A DNA stretch of 20,929 nucleotides. Origin: a virus. The notes under the pieces were generated by a model that saw only the letters and a program-made list of their open reading frames with translations, searched no databases and was not told where the DNA came from. How positions within the stretch are numbered: the stretch's first letter is position 1; each line of letters starts with the position of its first letter. Both the position numbers and the translations under genes were made by a program. Below, piece by piece: positions 6,464-20,929 of the stretch. The DNA is taken from positions 1-20,929 of the IMG/VR virus record IMGVR_UViG_3300050821_003615; one strand, 5' to 3'.

Positions 6464-6703
6464 ATGGGTATCGCAAAAGCAGTGATCGAGGTGGATCTGG
6501 CAGAGCTGACGGCAATCCAGCAAGGCCTCGCCGCGCTCAAGGTCTCGGCGGACATGACCGCGCAGGCGATCGAGCGGCAACTGACCGAGCAGCTCGCGAA
6601 CGCGCAGCGCCAGGCGGCCGTCGAGGCGCGGAAGAAACGCAAGGTCGCGCGCGCGAACTCGCACGCGAGCCCGGAGCCGGCTGCCGGTGGTGCGCCATCG
6701 TGA
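6464..6703 (+). CDS. Small coiled-coil protein, function unknown
   Basis: A 79-aa protein predicted to be a single long helix (AELTAIQQGLAALKVSADMT and AIERQLTEQLANAQRQAA), followed by a basic patch (KKRKVARA) and a Pro/Gly/Ala tail. A clear GAGGAGG Shine-Dalgarno lies seven bases before ATG6464, stronger than that of most neighbours, so separate initiation is likely. It overlaps the cupin-SET gene by four bases (GTGA). The basic tail could bind nucleic acid or be a protein-modification target, but there is no family match; the position among tail genes suggests a minor virion or assembly protein. Confidence 0.7.
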   Translation: MGIAKAVIEVDLAELTAIQQGLAALKVSADMTAQAIERQLTEQLANAQRQAAVEARKKRKVARANSHASPEPAAGGAPS

Positions 6704-7542
6704 ACGAGCTCGCCACACTCGCGCACCTCCCGGTCGAGGAGCTTGAGCGGGAGATGCTAAAACTCCCGCAGGCGCCGTGCGGCGTGCGTCATCACTTCAT
6801 CGCCGGGCTCTACATCCGCGAGGTGACGATCGCGGCGGACACGTACGCGATCGGACACCGGCACAAGGTCCCGCACGTGAATATCCTGCAAAAGGGGCGC
6901 GTGGCGATGGTGGGACCTGACGGGCGCACGATCGAACTCACCGCGCCGACGATGTATATCGGCCAGGCGGGCCGCAAGGTCGGCTACATCCGGGAAGACA
7001 TGACCTGGTTCAACATCTTCCCGACCGAGGAGACGGATGTTACGAAGCTTGAGGCGCTGCTCTTCGAGAAGAGCGAGGCGTTCGAGCAGGCGGCCGCCGC
7101 GCTCCTGCCGAGCGCGGAGCCGGATCGGCTGATCGGGTACAACCGCGAGGACTACAAGGACTTCATCGCGCAGGCCTTCCCCGGCAAGACCGAGCGGCAA
7201 GTGCGCGCAACCTTCGGCGGGGACGATGATGTGATCCAGTTTCCGCGCGGCACGTACAAGGTGAAGGTCGCCCCCTCGCACATCCACGGCCAGGGGGTGA
7301 TCGCGACCCACGACATCGCGGCCGGGGAGACGATCTGTGCGGCGAAGATCGGGGAGAACCGCACGCCGGCCGGGCGTTTTACCAATCACGCCCGCGACCC
7401 GAACGCGCGTATGCTTCGCCAGGCGCAAGTCGTGATGCTGGTCGCACTGCGTGCCATCAAGGGGGCACACGGCGGGATGGACGGTGAGGAGGTGACCGTC
7501 AACTACCGCCAGGCCATAGCGGAGGCTGCGAAGGACTCATGA
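6700..7542 (+). CDS. Cupin-SET fusion protein (putative lysine methyltransferase)
   Basis: A GTG start overlaps the previous stop. Residues about 30-110 form a cupin-like barrel: HHFIAGLYIREVTI, then GHRHKVPHVNILQKGRV (52-68) with His53, His55 and His59 as possible metal ligands. The second cupin motif (QAGRKVGYIREDMTWFNIFP) lacks its histidine. After a helical linker, residues about 184-271 form a minimal SET domain: IHGQGVIATHDIAAGETI (195-212), RFTNHARDPNA (226-236, the NHSxxPN SAM-binding motif) and GEEVTVNYR (262-270) with Tyr269 as the expected catalytic tyrosine. SET enzymes methylate lysines in proteins. No pre-SET or post-SET cysteines are present. It lies between fibre and ejection genes, so a virion or host protein could be the substrate; that is inference. 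Confidence 0.77.
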   Translation: MNELATLAHLPVEELEREMLKLPQAPCGVRHHFIAGLYIREVTIAADTYAIGHRHKVPHVNILQKGRVAMVGPDGRTIELTAPTMYIGQAGRKVGYIREDMTWFNIFPTEETDVTKLEALLFEKSEAFEQAAAALLPSAEPDRLIGYNREDYKDFIAQAFPGKTERQVRATFGGDDDVIQFPRGTYKVKVAPSHIHGQGVIATHDIAAGETICAAKIGENRTPAGRFTNHARDPNARMLRQAQVVMLVALRAIKGAHGGMDGEEVTVNYRQAIAEAAKDS

Positions 7543-9745: not shown

Positions 9746-11827
9746 ATGCCGACCTACGAGATTCAGGCCCCGGACGGCAATAAGTACCGGATCGAGGGCC
9801 CCGCCGGCGCAACTGACGACCAGGTACGCGCCCAGGTGCTCCAGCAGCACCCCCAGGCCGGCACGGCCAAGGCGGCAGCGCCGAAGCCGGACAGCGCACT
9901 CAAGACGGTCGGCAAGGAGGCGCTCGGCGGGCTTGAGGCAGCCGCCAGCACCGCGACCGGCATCGCCGGGGGACTTGGTGGCGGGCTCACCTACCTCGGC
10001 ACCCTGGCCGCCTCCGGCGGCGACACCGAGGCGGCCAAGGCTGTCCAGGAGGACACCCAAAAGGCCCTGACCTACCAGCCGAAGACGCAAGCGGGAAAGG
10101 CGGACGTCGCGGCGGTTGGGAACATCGCGACCGCCGCGATCGAGCGCCCGACGGAGGCCGCCGGGGACATCGCGCGCCGCGGGGTCCAAGCGGTCGGAGG
10201 ATCCCCGGAAGCGGCCGGGGTGGCCGGCTCGTTCGTCAAGACGGGCCTGCAGGCCCTCCCGTACGTCGCAGGTTATCGCGGGGCGGGCGCCGCCGCGCGC
10301 GGGGCGGAAACCGCGGCAGGGGCCGCAGAGACAGCAGGGGAGGCCGCAGCACGTGCACACGTCACTCGCACCACTTCTCTGGATTGGAACAGCGTACCTC
10401 CTGCTATCAAGAGGACCTTGTCCCGGATGGCTGCGCGCGGAGAAGACCTGGGACGCCTGGATCCGAAGGCGCTTGAGCGGGTCGCGCGCGCCCAGTCGCT
10501 GGACGTCCCGGTTCCAATCACTCGAGGTCAAGCTACCCGGGACCTGGCGAATATCACTGAGGAGGAGCAGCTGCGTCGGTCAAACGTCGGGGGCCCGCTA
10601 CGCGCCAAAATGTCGGAACAGGACACGGCCCTACATCGAAATTTAGCCGCCGTGCGGGAGCAGGTCGCGCCGGGCTCGAAGGTCACGAGCTCCGCCGACG
10701 CGGGCCTCCCCGTGCAGACGGCCGCGCGCCGCAAGCTCCAGGTGATGAAGGGCCAGTCGACGCGCCTGTACGAAGAGGCGCGCAAGGCCGGCGACCTCGA
10801 GGCGCCCGTCTCGACCGATCCGATCATGACGTGGCTGCAGGACCCGGCGAACAAGGCGAACGCCGGGTGGGTCGAGCAACGCCTGCGCGCGTACGATGCG
10901 CACCCGGGCGGCAAGCCGCAGCCGGGGCAGCCAACGACCGCGCCGATCCTCACGATCAACAACCTCGAGCGCGTGCGCCAGGAGCTGAACGCCGCCACGC
11001 AAGAGGGCGGGACGAAGGGCCATTACGCGGGGCAGGCGAAGGGGGTGCTCGACCAGCTCCTCGACAACTCCGGCGGAGATGCCTACAAGAAGGCGCGCGC
11101 GTCCTGGCGGGAGTGGAACCAGGAGTTCGGCCGGCAGCGCGCGATCCGCGACCTCACGCGCGAGAAGGCGGGGCTCACCGACCGGCGCATCGCGCTTGAG
11201 GGCACGACCGACTACGTGCTGAAGTCCTCGCGCGAGTCGCTGGAGGAGATCAAGGCCACCCTCACCAAGGGCGGCACGGAGAAGACGCGCGCGCGCGGCG
11301 AGAAGGCCTGGCGGGATCTGCAGGCCGGCGTCGTGCAGAAGCTGCGTGAGGAGGCGGCCGGCAAGCGCGCGATCAGGAACGAGGCGGACGCGGAGCAGTT
11401 CAACGCCTCCTTCCTCGATCGGTTCCACGAGCTCGACCGCTCCGGCAAGCTCGAGGTGCTCTTCGGGGACAAGGCAGCGGCGAAGCTGCGAAAGTTCGCC
11501 GACACGGTCCACGACGTGCGCACCACCCCGGCGGACCGCGTGGCCGGCCCGAACACCGCGACGCGCCTCGCGGCGCTGATGGAGACCTTCGCGCACTCCA
11601 CCGGCCTCTCGTTCGTCGCACGCGGGGTGCGCAAGGTCGGGGAGAAGATCCACGAGGGCGTGCGGGAAGAAGAACTCGCCCGCAACCCGCTCGAGGACGC
11701 AGCCGCAACGGGGGCACGGGCGGACCGCGCGGAGGCGCGCGGCGCGCGCGCTGGTAGGTTGACGCGCACGCTCAAGGAGCGCTATGGCGCGGGCAGCGTG
11801 GTGCAGTCTACCCAGGACCAGCAGTGA
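9746..11827 (+). CDS. gp16-like large DNA ejection protein
   Basis: ATG9746, one base after the previous stop, gives 693 aa; an earlier in-frame ATG lies inside the upstream gene. The N-terminal ~35 residues (YEIQAPDGNKYRIEGPAGAT, then DDQVRAQVLQQHP) form a small beta-alpha domain with the GPxGATxxQ motif recurrent in phage virion proteins. Two glycine/alanine-rich hydrophobic zones follow (about 50-85 and 155-195), compatible with membrane insertion, then a long charged helical region to the end. This suits the largest P22-type ejection protein (gp16), which acts in the cytoplasmic membrane. No lytic transglycosylase motif was found. It overlaps the ATP-grasp gene as GTGA. Confidence 0.62.
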   Translation: MPTYEIQAPDGNKYRIEGPAGATDDQVRAQVLQQHPQAGTAKAAAPKPDSALKTVGKEALGGLEAAASTATGIAGGLGGGLTYLGTLAASGGDTEAAKAVQEDTQKALTYQPKTQAGKADVAAVGNIATAAIERPTEAAGDIARRGVQAVGGSPEAAGVAGSFVKTGLQALPYVAGYRGAGAAARGAETAAGAAETAGEAAARAHVTRTTSLDWNSVPPAIKRTLSRMAARGEDLGRLDPKALERVARAQSLDVPVPITRGQATRDLANITEEEQLRRSNVGGPLRAKMSEQDTALHRNLAAVREQVAPGSKVTSSADAGLPVQTAARRKLQVMKGQSTRLYEEARKAGDLEAPVSTDPIMTWLQDPANKANAGWVEQRLRAYDAHPGGKPQPGQPTTAPILTINNLERVRQELNAATQEGGTKGHYAGQAKGVLDQLLDNSGGDAYKKARASWREWNQEFGRQRAIRDLTREKAGLTDRRIALEGTTDYVLKSSRESLEEIKATLTKGGTEKTRARGEKAWRDLQAGVVQKLREEAAGKRAIRNEADAEQFNASFLDRFHELDRSGKLEVLFGDKAAAKLRKFADTVHDVRTTPADRVAGPNTATRLAALMETFAHSTGLSFVARGVRKVGEKIHEGVREEELARNPLEDAAATGARADRAEARGARAGRLTRTLKERYGAGSVVQSTQDQQ

Positions 11828-13140
11828 AGGTCCTGGTCATCGAGCACGAGGACGCTGGGTGCGGACTCGCCTTCTGTCTGCGCTGCATCCGCGCCGGCCA
11901 CCAGGTGCGCTACTACGCCGGTAAGGGCTCGCGCGTCGGGGAAGGGTTCCCGGGCCTGCAGCGGATCGACAACTGGGTGTCGGCGTTGCGGTGGGCGGAC
12001 CTCGTGTGGTGCACCGGCAACCACGAGTTCCTGCCGAAGCTCGACTACGCCAAGTCCCAGGGCGTGTGCGTGTTCGCCCCGTCCGTGCAGTCCGCCCAGC
12101 TTGAGATCAAGCGCGCGAAGGGGATGAAGTTCTTCGAGGATCACGACATATCGGTGCCGGATTACCACCAGTTCGCGAGTCTAAAGGAGGCGGAGCTGTT
12201 CCAGCGCAAGACCGACGCGCGCTTCGTGTTCAAGACCCTCGGAGACGAGGAGGACAAGTCCTTGTCCTACGTCGGCAAGACTCCGGCCGACATGGTCGCG
12301 CGCCTGCAGCGCTGGCAGCGCCTCGGCATGAACCCGAAGGGCCCGGTGATGCTGCAGGCGTGCATCGAAGGCCTGGAGCTCGGCGTGTCGCGCTGGATGG
12401 GCGCGGACGGGTTCGTGGGTCCCTACAACGAGAACTTCGAGCACAAGAAGCTGCTCTCCGGCAACTGCGGCCCGAACTGCGGGGAAGCCGGCACGGTGCA
12501 GAAGTACACCACCGACTCCTCACTCGGGGAGATGGTGCTCGCCCCGCTTGAGGCCGCGCTGGTCAAGCTCGGGCACCTGGGCGACATCGACGTGAACTGC
12601 ATCATCGATGAGGCGGGGAAGCCGTGGCCGTTGGAGTTCACGTGCCGCCCCGGCTGGCCGGCCTACAACATCATGATGGCGACGCACCAGGGCGACCCGG
12701 CCGAGTGGATGCTCGATGCGTGCAAGGGCAAGGACACGCTCAAGGTGACGACGGCGATCGCGGCCGGGGTGGTGGTCGCGCAGCCGGACTACCCGTACTC
12801 GGAGAAGACGAAGGCGGAGACACTGGACATCCCGATCTACGGCGTGAGCGACAAGAACCGCCGGTTCGTGGCGCCCCAGTCGGTGAAGATGGCAACGCTC
12901 CCGCAGATGGTCGAGGGCAAGGTGAAGGACGAGCCGATGTGGGCGACCTGCGGGGACTACATTGCGGTGGTGACCGGGGTCGGAAAGTCTGTTAAACAGG
13001 CGTGCGAGCGAGCCTACCGGGTAGTGAAGGACCTCTCCGTTCCCAACATGATCTACCGCGACGACATCGGCGAGAAGCTCGAGGCGGAACTGCCCAAGCT
13101 CCAGGCGCACGGGTTCGCGGAGGAGTTTACCTATGGGTGA
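11824..13140 (+). CDS. PurD-like ATP-grasp ligase
   Basis: The 438-aa product follows the whole domain order of phosphoribosylamine-glycine ligase (PurD/GARS): N-domain MKVLVIEHEDAGCGLAFCLR, then FAPSVQSAQLEIKRAKGMKF (84-103), the ATP-grasp part with FVFKTLGDEEDK (134-145), QACIEGLELGVSRWMGADGF (178-197), EHKKLLSGNCGPNCGEAGTV (206-225), DVNCIIDEAGKPWPLEFTCR (256-275), and the C-domain ACERAYRVV plus YRDDIGEKLE. PurD joins glycine to phosphoribosylamine. Here the N-terminal GGREHAL-type motif is replaced and the metal-site 'EFNCR' reads EFTCR, so the substrate may differ. GTG start overlaps the ejection gene's stop. A purine-pathway auxiliary enzyme or an unrelated amide ligase are both possible. 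Confidence 0.78.
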   Translation: MKVLVIEHEDAGCGLAFCLRCIRAGHQVRYYAGKGSRVGEGFPGLQRIDNWVSALRWADLVWCTGNHEFLPKLDYAKSQGVCVFAPSVQSAQLEIKRAKGMKFFEDHDISVPDYHQFASLKEAELFQRKTDARFVFKTLGDEEDKSLSYVGKTPADMVARLQRWQRLGMNPKGPVMLQACIEGLELGVSRWMGADGFVGPYNENFEHKKLLSGNCGPNCGEAGTVQKYTTDSSLGEMVLAPLEAALVKLGHLGDIDVNCIIDEAGKPWPLEFTCRPGWPAYNIMMATHQGDPAEWMLDACKGKDTLKVTTAIAAGVVVAQPDYPYSEKTKAETLDIPIYGVSDKNRRFVAPQSVKMATLPQMVEGKVKDEPMWATCGDYIAVVTGVGKSVKQACERAYRVVKDLSVPNMIYRDDIGEKLEAELPKLQAHGFAEEFTYG

Positions 13141-16588: not shown

Positions 16589-16752
16589 TTCCCCCTCCCC
16601 TGCTGTTCGATGCGCTCGGCATCCTCAGCGTCGGTGATCGCCTGGCACAGGACCTCGTTCAGGTCCGTACGGTCGAGCGGACCGAACTCGAACCCATCGA
16701 GGAGCACGCTGCGCAGCTCCATCAAGCGCTGCAGGCTCAGGGGCTTACTCAC
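16585..16752 (-). CDS. 55-aa hypothetical protein
   Basis: A GTG start at 16752 overlaps the stop of the nuclease gene (GTGA) and gives 55 aa (SLQRLMELRSVLLDGF, EFGPLDRTDLNEVLCQAITD, AEDAERIEQQGRGK), an acidic helical protein. The longer open frame to 17088 runs antisense-like through the nuclease gene and has arginine-rich shadow composition, so it is rejected. Translational coupling on both sides suggests it is real; no family is recognised. Confidence 0.6.
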   Translation of the reverse strand: MSKPLSLQRLMELRSVLLDGFEFGPLDRTDLNEVLCQAITDAEDAERIEQQGRGK

Positions 16753-17354
16753 GCGGCCACCTTCTGCGGGACGTGCTTGAGCACAATCTCGGCGAGCTCG
16801 TCGATCACCCCGTCGAGGTCCACGAGCATGTCCGGGTACCGATCGAGCGGGAAGTGGTGCAGGTCGAAGATCACGACGCGGGTGGGATCGCGCGTGTCGT
16901 AGCGGCACTGGAAGACGTCGTAGATGAAGCGCCGGCAGTTGAACATCGCGAGGTACGCGCGCCACTGGTAGCTGTCGGTGTACCGCTCCGCCTCGAAGCG
17001 CTCGGACAGCTTGTAGTCGCGCACCGTGAGTCCGGATAGCGCGTCGACCTTGCCGACGAGCGTCACGGGGCCGGAGGGTGTGTTCCACAACTTCTCCGCC
17101 TTCAGCTCCCGGATCGCCGGCACGAAGAGTTCGCCCTCGATCTGAAAGTCGAAGCGGTACCCGTCCTGCTCGAGCACATGCACGTCGGAGACGGCGAGTT
17201 CCTCGAGCGCCTTGTGGAAGGCGCGGGACGCCAGCATCTGATGCGAGGGCTCGGCGAGTCCGGACAGCTCAGCGATTAGCTCCTCAAGGCTCGAATCATC
17301 GCGCTGTGACCAGTAGCGGAAGGTCTCCAGGTCGGAAACAGACAAGCGAATCAT
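16749..17354 (-). CDS. RecB-family PD-(D/E)XK nuclease
   Basis: The 201-aa protein has the RecB-type nuclease motif set: SRAFHKALEEL with His47 (motif I), VGKVDAL with Asp104, TVRDYKLSE with Asp113 and Lys115 (the catalytic D-x-K), and DSYQWRAYLAMF with Gln130 and Tyr134 (motif IV, the QxxxY signature). This family includes phage recombination exonucleases and Cas4. A perfect AAGGAGGT Shine-Dalgarno (17361-17368) sits seven bases before the ATG, the strongest in the block. Together with the Sak4-like ATPase it would supply resection and annealing for recombination-dependent replication. It lacks the Cas4 cysteine cluster. Confidence 0.82.
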   Translation of the reverse strand: MIRLSVSDLETFRYWSQRDDSSLEELIAELSGLAEPSHQMLASRAFHKALEELAVSDVHVLEQDGYRFDFQIEGELFVPAIRELKAEKLWNTPSGPVTLVGKVDALSGLTVRDYKLSERFEAERYTDSYQWRAYLAMFNCRRFIYDVFQCRYDTRDPTRVVIFDLHHFPLDRYPDMLVDLDGVIDELAEIVLKHVPQKVAA

Positions 17355-17358
17355 CGTC

Positions 17359-17781
17359 CTACCTCCTTACCGTGAACGAGACCGACACCCCGCGCTCGGC
17401 GTTGTTCGCGAGTGCCCGGGTCTCGATGCCGATGCTCACGAGTTCGAACGCGCGCGTCACCCAGGGCGGCGCGCCTGACTGCGCAAGGAGGCATGTTACG
17501 CCCGCGTGGGCAACACCCGACACTGCGAAGTAGGTGACGACGCGCCCATCGCTCGGGTGCTTGCCGAGGACCGGGTTCGTCTCGTACCAGTGCCAATGAC
17601 CGGGGTGCTGGACGAGGTCCAGGGTCTCCGCGGCGTCGACCGCGGCGAGGACCTGGTAGGCGCCCTCCTCGTAGAGGGTCTCCTTCGGCAGGCTCGCGCA
17701 GCCGAAGACCGCGATCAGGCAGACAGCGATAAGCACCAGCCACCCGACCGTCGACAGCACGTTCTCGATGACGTCCCTCAC
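17359..17781 (-). CDS. Putative lipoprotein / membrane-anchored phage protein
   Basis: A GTG at 17781 overlaps the ATPase stop (GTGA) and gives 140 aa; the frame's longer upstream opening is a shadow of that gene. A hydrophobic N-terminal helix (VGWLVLIAVCLIAVFGC) ends in a lipobox-like FGC, followed by a polar domain with YQVLAAVDAAETLDLVQHPG, WYETNPVLGKHPSDGRVVTY and ALANNAERGVSVSF. The ExNPxLGxxPS and NNxxxG pattern recurs in small phage and bacterial membrane proteins of unknown role. Its place between the Sak4-like and RecB-like genes is odd for an envelope protein. The gene ends directly on the strong Shine-Dalgarno of the nuclease. Confidence 0.6.
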   Translation of the reverse strand: MRDVIENVLSTVGWLVLIAVCLIAVFGCASLPKETLYEEGAYQVLAAVDAAETLDLVQHPGHWHWYETNPVLGKHPSDGRVVTYFAVSGVAHAGVTCLLAQSGAPPWVTRAFELVSIGIETRALANNAERGVSVSFTVRR

Positions 17782-18686
17782 GCGGCCGCCTTGTCGAGTT
17801 TCTCGAAGCCGCCGGTGGCGACATCGAACCCGAGCCCGTGCGACTTCGCCGCGTGCTTCATCAAGCGCTTCACGTTGTCGAGCACCGCGGCGTCCGCCTT
17901 CTGGATCAACGGCAGGAGCTTGTCGAAGTCCTCCTTCGTCGCGCACTCCTCGATGCGCGCCTTCCAGTCGGCGAGCATGGAGGCGACCTTGGTCTGCTCC
18001 TCGGAGAGGGTGTTGAGCGAGGCCTTGATGGTCGCCACGACATCCGCGAGGAAGCGCGGGGACTTCGGGGTGTCCGGCACCGGGATCGGCGGCAGCTGCG
18101 CCGGGTTCTTACCGAAGGCGGTATCGGTGGGACTGAAGTTCAGGAACCTCTTTCCTCCCTGAAGATACAGTCGGCCCATGACGTCGGCCGCCTTGTAGAC
18201 CTCGTTCTTCGAGCCGCCCTGCATGTCCAGGCGCTCGATCACCTCGTCCCCCTGGCGCTGCTCGTCGGAGTGGGCGATCAGGATCACATCGAGGCCGAAG
18301 GAGCGCATGAGCCGCAGCCAGGCGATGAAGCCGGCCTTCAGCTCCCCGAACCCCTGGAGCGTGAGCGCGCCTCCGCGGCCCATCTTCGGGTTCCGGGCGA
18401 TGATGTACGTGGTGAGGGCATCCAGCGCCCGACCGGCGGTGTCCACCACGAGCGTCGCATAGGGCGCGAGGTCCTCCCGGGTGATGGCCTCCACATCGGA
18501 CCACCCCTCGACGACGATCGTGTCTGTGCGGTTCCTGGCGCGGTAGGCGCCCTTATCGAAGTCGAGTAGCAGGGGCTTCTCGGCCGTGAACCCGAGCGTC
18601 GTCTTGCCGATGCCCGGGACCGCGTAGATGCACGCGGTGATGGTCTTGACCTCGATGACGTCCGAGGCCTTGGTGATGCGTAGCAT
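17778..18686 (-). CDS. Sak4-like RecA-fold ATPase (phage recombination)
   Basis: The 302-aa product begins with a RecA-core nucleotide-binding domain: YAVPGIGKTTLGF (21-33, Walker A with Lys28-Thr29), LLLDFDKGAYRA (39-50), LVVDTAGRAL (79-88, Walker B Asp82), and GLDVILIAHSDEQRQGDEVI with DMQGGSKNEVYKAADVMGRL as sensor/core strands. This is the AAA_24/Sak4 group of phage single-strand annealing ATPases. The C-terminal ~90 residues are a charged helical extension possibly binding SSB or DNA. AGGAGG lies before ATG18686. Pairing with the RecB-like nuclease downstream fits a phage recombinase-exonuclease set. Confidence 0.78.
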   Translation of the reverse strand: MLRITKASDVIEVKTITACIYAVPGIGKTTLGFTAEKPLLLDFDKGAYRARNRTDTIVVEGWSDVEAITREDLAPYATLVVDTAGRALDALTTYIIARNPKMGRGGALTLQGFGELKAGFIAWLRLMRSFGLDVILIAHSDEQRQGDEVIERLDMQGGSKNEVYKAADVMGRLYLQGGKRFLNFSPTDTAFGKNPAQLPPIPVPDTPKSPRFLADVVATIKASLNTLSEEQTKVASMLADWKARIEECATKEDFDKLLPLIQKADAAVLDNVKRLMKHAAKSHGLGFDVATGGFEKLDKAAA

Positions 18687-20188: not shown

Positions 20189-20205
20189 CCGATGAACGTC
20201 ATCGG
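20189..20205. promoter_or_regulatory. 17-bp dyad, operator or 5'-UTR hairpin candidate
   Basis: CCGATGA-ACG-TCATCGG is a perfect 7-bp dyad with a 3-base centre, 17 bp in all, the length of many Cro/CI operators. It lies just ahead of the Shine-Dalgarno of the leftward 63-aa gene and could also form a hairpin in its mRNA. A CGGTACCG palindrome abuts it. No second copy was found in the window. Confidence 0.35.
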
Positions 20206-20231
20206 TACCGTTGAGCCTCACAGTGCCTGAT

Positions 20232-20262
20232 GTTGCGCCCTTGGTCAACAGCATTGCGCAAC
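20232..20262. promoter_or_regulatory. Inverted repeat GTTGCGC / GCGCAAC in divergent control region
   Basis: GTTGCGC at 20232-20238 and its reverse complement at 20256-20262 flank 17 bases. A further TGCGCAAC copy lies at 20636-20643, on the other side of the repressor gene. The set lies where a repressor would control both directions. Binding by the 71-aa protein is inference. Confidence 0.35.
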
Positions 20263-20283
20263 GAGTCAACGGGGGTGTAGACT
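20254..20283 (+). promoter_or_regulatory. Candidate promoter giving leaderless repressor mRNA
   Basis: TTGCGC (20254-20259), 18-base spacer, then TAGACT (20278-20283) resembles a weak sigma70 promoter. The expected start, about seven bases downstream, falls on the A of ATG20291, and no Shine-Dalgarno lies there, so the transcript may be leaderless, as for lambda cI from pRM. The -35 overlaps the GCGCAAC arm. Confidence 0.35.
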
Positions 20284-20290
20284 GCATCAC

Positions 20291-20506
20291 ATGACGAGGC
20301 TGCAACGCGCCGTGCGGGCGCTGGTGAAGACCCACGGGGGAGTAAGGGCTGCCGCGCGCGCCACCGGTCTTGATGCTGGGTATCTTTCCAGGCTGAGAAG
20401 CGGCTCACAGAAGAACCCGAGCGAGGCGGTGCTCCTGATCCTGGGGATTACCCGCAAGGTGACGTATCACAGTTTGGAGGGAGGATCCCCCGGCTCGGTG
20501 GCCTGA
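20291..20506 (+). CDS. Small Cro/CI-like helix-turn-helix regulator
   Basis: The 71-aa protein is a single HTH domain: helix 2-turn-helix 3 at about 17-38 (GVRAAARATGLDAGYLSRLR), then SGSQKNPSEAVLLILGI, the usual Cro/CI sequence pattern. No peptidase or oligomerisation domain is attached, so a Cro-like repressor or a small immunity regulator fits best. It points away from the leftward early block across an intergenic stretch with dyads and promoters, the layout of a phage genetic switch. Whether it acts on that block, on the rightward genes beyond 20749, or both is not visible. Confidence 0.75.
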   Translation: MTRLQRAVRALVKTHGGVRAAARATGLDAGYLSRLRSGSQKNPSEAVLLILGITRKVTYHSLEGGSPGSVA

Positions 20507-20520
20507 CACGAACCGGGGGA
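20486..20520 (+). terminator. Inverted repeat spanning the repressor stop codon
   Basis: TCCCCCGG (20486-20493) and CCGGGGGA (20513-20520) are perfect 8-bp arms around a 19-base loop that contains the TGA of the regulator gene. It is a strong GC stem, but there is no T-tract after it, so it is a doubtful terminator; an RNA-stability or translation-shielding hairpin is as likely. Confidence 0.25.
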
Positions 20521-20591
20521 ATGCGGGCAGTGACGCAAAGGGGTTTGCCCGACTTGAGACAGAGTCTAGCGGAAAACGGTCGCACCCGTGC

Positions 20592-20620
20592 AAGTTGTCG
20601 TTATTGTGCTTGTGTATAAT
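20592..20620 (+). promoter_or_regulatory. Candidate early rightward promoter with perfect -10
   Basis: TATAAT at 20615-20620 is a perfect sigma70 -10 hexamer. Seventeen bases upstream the -35 is only AAGTTG (20592-20597), so it is weak unless activated. A DnaA box (20611-20619) overlaps the -10, and others follow immediately, so DnaA bound here would be expected to block it. It would serve the DUF1064-like gene and whatever follows. Confidence 0.35.
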
Positions 20621-20686
20621 TCTGTGGATAAGTTGTGCGCAACATGTGCACACCGTTGGGGTAACTAGCCTTTTCCCTGTGCATAA
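20611..20686 (+). promoter_or_regulatory. Array of DnaA boxes in one orientation
   Basis: TGTGTATAA (20611-20619), TGTGGATAA (20623-20631) and TGTGCATAA (20678-20686) each match the DnaA consensus TTATNCACA read on the minus strand; the second is the strict TTATCCACA box. Two weaker copies starting TGTG lie at 20634 and 20645. Starts are separated by 12, 11, 11 and 33 bases, near multiples of the helical turn, so bound proteins would line up on one face. Confidence 0.55.
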
Positions 20687-20748
20687 GTGCCCGTTCTTAA
20701 GATTTAAGACTACAACTGCAAGAGATTTTGACGAGAAGGAGGCAGACC

Positions 20749-20929
20749 GTGAGCGGATGGAGGAGGTACCGCGGGCCGAAGTCGGACGCCCGTGTTCCAC
20801 GTGGAACCAAGTACGGCGCGAAGGCACAGACGATCGACGGCCTGCGCTTCGCCTCCAAGCTCGAGGCAGCCAGGTACCAGGAGCTCGTGTCGATGGAGAA
20901 GGCCGGGGTGGTGAACTGGTTCATCCGCC
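20749..20929 (+). CDS. DUF1064-like putative resolvase/nuclease (5' part)
   Basis: AAGGAGG at 20736-20742 lies six bases before GTG20749; the frame stays open to the window edge (60 residues). GTKYGAKAQTIDGLRFASKL, then EAARYQELVSMEKAGVV, is the signature opening of DUF1064 phage proteins, which are thought to be PD-(D/E)XK/Holliday-junction-nuclease-like enzymes acting in recombination or branch resolution. The catalytic part lies beyond the edge. The first 20 codons are basic and contain a perfect parS-like 16-mer. It starts the rightward early side next to the origin-like region. Confidence 0.72.
   Translation, partial: MSGWRRYRGPKSDARVPRGTKYGAKAQTIDGLRFASKLEAARYQELVSMEKAGVVNWFIR
20793..20808. 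promoter_or_regulatory. parS-like ParB-binding site inside a coding region
   Basis: TGTTCCACGTGGAACC contains the 14-bp perfect palindrome GTTCCACGTGGAAC (20794-20807). It is the sequence form reported for chromosomal parS in pseudomonads, related to the general TGTTTCACGTGAAACA consensus. It overlaps codons 15-20 of the DUF1064-like gene (VPRGT). A 14-base exact match is very unlikely by chance in 21 kb, but coding and codon bias can create palindromes, so binding must be tested. Confidence 0.55.

Follow-up and report, generated by a model that had tools for sequence, protein, structure and literature searches.

Among tailed phages that have been studied well, most encode an initiator or a helicase loader of their own. 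The iteron plasmid origins of F, P1 (oriR) and RK2 need DnaA as well, and their DnaA boxes adjoin an AT-rich region, but these origins also need the plasmid Rep protein and its iterons. In the oriC of E. coli, the DnaA-ATP complex grows in an ordered way, guided by weak sites that are placed 2 bp apart between strong boxes (PMC6727663). Here we compare with these systems a phased array of DnaA boxes in the window, by which we mean the whole stretch of DNA analysed, a linear IMG/VR virus record of 20,929 bases.

The start of a second contig (L021/L029, IMGVR_UViG_3300050821_002742, 18,435 bases; hereafter L029) is identical to the final 97 bases of the window. Because of this overlap, and because the reading frame of a DUF1064 gene stays intact across the junction and resembles the protein of a related phage, L022, over that length, the two contigs very probably represent one phage of at least 39.3 kb. 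The other ends of the window and of L029 do not overlap, and the genome is therefore not closed; synteny with G004, examined in an attempt to close it, showed mainly the early module in common. Together the two contigs encode a terminase, a portal-like connector, a tail-fibre-like gene, an endolysin, methyltransferases and sugar genes. The tail-fibre-like product (6700-7542) has its PHROGs similarity in the N-terminal part, whereas its C-terminal end matches a SET domain, and the late gene region includes a protein with PurD-like (GARS) ATP-grasp and C domains (11824-13140). At 728-2470, a methyltransferase domain comes first, and the C-terminal part looked heptosyltransferase-like by eye only. 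Positions 430-3121 of L029 hold a SIS-domain (GmhA-like) gene, a PfkB-type kinase and a CTP-transferase-like gene near heptose kinase/adenylyltransferase (phrog_7878), which together resemble an ADP-heptose pathway; at 4648-5916 of L029, a ParB-like domain and a DNA methyltransferase are fused in one gene (phrog_498). A DNA search of known phages with the window gave no match, nor did a scan with the helix-turn-helix (HTH) protein or a search of bacterial genomes with Rep. The search of bacterial genomes with Sak4 returned only a 46% relative, in Tropicimonas.

Three perfect TGTGNATAA boxes were found on the plus strand: box 1, TGTGTATAA, at 20611-20619; box 2, TGTGGATAA, at 20623-20631; and box 3, TGTGCATAA, at 20678-20686. 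They are clustered within 76 bp, and the 20.9 kb window contains no other perfect copies. Two weak units on the same strand, TGTGCGCAA at 20634-20642 and TGTGCACAC at 20645-20653, agree at 6 of the 8 fixed positions and start 11 and 22 bp after box 2, while box 3 starts 55 bp after it. The spacing of the units is accordingly 12, 11, 11 and 33; counted from 20623, four of the five are in exact 11-bp register (+11, +22 and +55), and box 1 stands 12 bp before box 2. A 12-mer, CTGTGSATAAGT, is common to the boxes at 20623 and 20678, which are 55 bp (5 x 11) apart. Three perfect boxes arose in none of 20,000 order-1 Markov sequences, the model being the 242-base intergenic segment itself, and both weak units in 11-bp register after box 2 likewise in none of 20,000 local Markov sequences. 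When periods of 9-16 were compared, period 11 gave the top four-unit score in the window. The boxes and their phasing are far beyond chance. A first-pass annotation had described three boxes on one strand, plus two weaker copies, spaced near multiples of 11 bp, and both statements hold at these positions.

An AT-rich segment, which had been noted to follow the array, was also confirmed. It contains CTTAAGATTTAAGA and extends approximately from 20690 to 20730, on the 3' side of the TGTGNATAA boxes; the segment around 20698 and the array together form the most AT-rich 40- and 60-base stretch of the 39.3 kb. This segment is a candidate unwinding element. Inspection by eye revealed no clear DnaA-trio beside the boxes. 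In L022 and another related phage, L027, the CTTAAGA elements CTTAAGATCTTA and CTTAAGAATTAAGA lie upstream of DUF1064, and the stretches with these elements rank at or near the top of those records in AT content.

The array is located in a non-coding slot of 242 bases (20507-20748), in which no frame gave a family match. The slot is bordered on the left by the gene for a 71-aa HTH protein (20291-20506, plus strand), aligned with L002, L022, L027 and L024, and on the right by the DUF1064 gene (phrog_190, Holliday junction resolvase-like; 20749-20929, plus strand, continuing in L029 1-300), whose GTG start at 20749 is closely preceded by AGGAGG. Further left, before the rightward HTH gene, are leftward genes for a PDDEXK-like protein (16749-17354, so named by our own reading, its PHROG being without function), a Sak4-like ssDNA annealing ATPase of the same early module (17778-18686, minus strand; phrog_124, E 2e-44) and a DNA methyltransferase.

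The gene order HTH - X - DUF1064 recurs in related phages. The early module has its nearest relative in L002 (Sak4 70%, HTH 49%, DUF1064 46%), where an O-like replication initiation protein (phrog_1032, E 9e-32), with four 22-base repeats in its gene, takes the place of X. In L023, a primosomal protein gene, presumably DUF1376-like, lies upstream of DUF1064. Between these two genes (L023 3195-3276) are six CGGTGGYTYAAC-type repeats exactly 11 bp apart; this segment is probably a further phage origin, one that combines an initiator with iterons. X in L022 and L027 corresponds to the N-terminal part of the epsilon15/DnaT-like initiation family (phrog_2509) and has a length of about 135 aa, where the profile has 277; in L182 the same gene precedes DUF1064, and its contig begins too near to show the HTH gene. 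In the window, X is the array only. Since the relatives have an initiation gene as X, the array stands in the replication-initiation slot. We do not claim that it is a leftover of a rep gene: with the array masked, DNA alignments of the slot were not significant against L022 and L002, and that against L027 was borderline (6-8 of 300 shuffles reached the score). A short in-frame resemblance of the slot to rep genes (LWISCAQHV versus LWKTADEHV) was seen and is not relied on.

Phased arrays were also found at homologous places inside the rep genes of L022, L027 and L182, in each case as four units 11-12 bp apart. The units are TGTGCATAA, TGTGTAGGA, TGTGTGTAT and TGTGGATAA in L022; TGGTGGTAA, TGTGTGGGA, TGTGGGTAA and TGTGGAAAA in L027; and TATGTAACA, TGTGTGGGA, TCTTGCTAT and TGTGGATAA in L182. 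When the rep genes were recoded with synonymous codons, the observed array score was reached in 0, 0 and 1 of 4000 trials, respectively, indicating that the protein does not force the boxes. The sole two perfect boxes in the 38 kb record of L022 are those of this array. The array was absent from the rep-family records of epsilon15, Carin1, Olaya and ctnlZ23, and a longer relative, L168, has repeats of different sequence, 33 bp apart. The retention of the array in relatives, raised as a check by the first-pass annotation, is thus partial: L022, L027 and L182 have a phased array, whereas others have an initiator gene with other repeats.

ORF scans of the window and L029, which covered the small ORFs in part, detected no recognisable initiator of replication and no helicase, loader or polymerase. 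In particular, phrog_1032, phrog_2509, DnaB, DnaC/IstB, polymerase A and D5-type queries gave no match there, and the Pfam queries for replication families do match in control genomes. It is unlikely that the phage has an initiator of its own, either unrecognised or located in an unsequenced gap, with the boxes only assisting as in iteron plasmid origins. As the genome is not closed, an initiator may indeed be missing from the sequence at hand, and L022 and L027 provide a precedent, combining DnaA boxes with iteron-like repeats and a short Rep protein. However, no repeats other than the boxes, initiator-specific iterons included, occur in 20500-20760. The HTH gene is not the replaced part, because in relatives it also adjoins a separate initiator.

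Because the array occupies the initiation slot, no initiator, helicase, loader or polymerase was recognised, L022, L027 and L182 have phased arrays and an AT-rich segment is adjacent, 20507-20748 is likely to be the replication origin of the phage, a miniature oriC fired by host DnaA. A host-DnaA-dependent origin was one of two alternatives offered at the outset, and these features support it well. In the proposed mechanism, host DnaA would bind the three strong boxes, and DnaA-ATP would then occupy the intervening weak sites, which share their 11-bp helical register, and form an oligomer. The oligomer would open the AT-rich segment at 20690-20730, and the host helicase and replisome would then be loaded to activate the putative origin.

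Several points count against an origin. The array is absent from the nearest Sak4 and early-module relatives (L002-L010). Relative to the boxes, the AT-rich flank is on the other side than in E. coli oriC. No IHF-like site was found in the window with one mismatch allowed, an IHF site being no universal feature of oriC. GC skew, suggested earlier as a check, is silent: over the window and L029 it tracks the gene strand and has no clear minimum at the array. In addition, the genome is unclosed, and DnaA binding and replication from the segment are predictions.

We also examined how frequent such arrays are in viruses. When viral contigs were searched for three units at 11-bp spacing, with 21 bases fixed, at least 120 matched, whereas the reversed pattern, used as a control, matched 6. 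Among 80 of the matched contigs, 69 array midpoints were outside ORFs of at least 100 aa, though ORFs of this size make up 71% of the DNA, and additional boxes favoured distances of 11, 12, 22 and 33; these counts are not independent because the loci were not deduplicated. The 11-bp DnaA-box arrays of many contigs (within L036-L115) are longer than that of the window and more perfect, and L037, L069, L098 and L115 are examples with box clusters on both strands. Similar arrays are present in noncoding gaps of known phages, namely Berlinvirus P483, T5-like Salmonella phages and Lactococcus phage AM4. Among open-licence papers, none that we found describes 11-bp DnaA arrays as being widespread in phages, or a bare array in an initiator slot. 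Phased DnaA arrays are thus shared with many viral contigs and with some known phages, so that the window is a variant of something known; what is distinctive is the bare array in the initiator slot.

The long arrays of other phage types, such as P483 and the T5-like phages, would also be consistent with a DnaA sink, a datA-like decoy by which many phage copies would sequester host DnaA and so reduce initiation in the host, with phage replication beginning at another place; three strong sites in each genome, multiplied by many copies, could bind much DnaA. As an explanation of the window, such a sink is improbable, for it leaves the initiation-slot position, the missing initiator and the adjacent AT maximum unexplained and does not need an 11-bp phasing with weak sites between strong ones. 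A sink is nevertheless possible alongside an origin, the two being compatible.

The other alternative offered at the outset, an early promoter sensing DnaA-ATP, here controlling the DUF1064 operon, received no positive support and is very improbable because no -35 element was found: although the DUF1064 start follows 60-140 bp downstream of the array, which does contain the TATAAT (20615-20620) that had been called a perfect -10, this motif is a by-product of box 1 and the following T, no sigma-70-like promoter (-35 and -10 with 16-18 bp spacing) occurs in 20200-20800, and the array in L022, L027 and L182 is inside a gene, about 400 bp from DUF1064.

Returning to the proposed host-fired origin, we tentatively consider a wider reading, which is possible but more doubtful, that phages have repeatedly swapped an initiator gene and its iterons for a bare phased DnaA array and so become host-initiated replicons. 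The stages of such a swap might be represented by L002, L023 and L168, with an initiator and its own repeats; by L022, L027 and L182, with a truncated Rep and an embedded array; and by the window, with the array alone. The many 11-bp arrays in viral contigs could, as part of the same conjecture, belong to this strategy.

If the origin reading is true, an origin made of host DnaA sites only would tie phage replication to the DnaA-ATP level of the host, and the locus would serve as a naturally occurring minimal oriC in which to determine the smallest number of sites that allows DNA opening. Comparison of the slot would then be a simple way to find such phages, in which the initiator gene is missing and the phased array remains.

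Among known systems, E. coli oriC shares with the window the strong boxes, the weak sites between them at 2 bp (an 11-bp period) and the adjoining AT-rich segment, whereas the window is much smaller, has no IHF-like site, carries its AT-rich segment 3' of the boxes and lies in a phage initiator slot. A lambda-type origin, an O gene with internal iterons as in L002, occupies the same genome slot and has phased repeats; unlike it, the window has no initiator gene, and its repeats are DnaA boxes, not initiator sites. The truncated epsilon15/DnaT-like genes (phrog_2509) of L022, L027 and L182 likewise place a phased DnaA array in this slot, ahead of DUF1064, and L022 and L027 also resemble the window in the AT-rich CTTAAGA element, but in these phages a short rep gene encloses the array and iteron-like repeats follow, neither of which the window has. 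With F, P1 oriR and RK2, the window has in common DnaA boxes next to an AT-rich region. With the T5-like phages, Berlinvirus P483 and Lactococcus phage AM4, it shares tandem TGTGNATAA units about 11 bp apart in noncoding gaps; the arrays of these phages, whose function is not annotated in their records, were not seen in an initiator slot, unlike that of the window.
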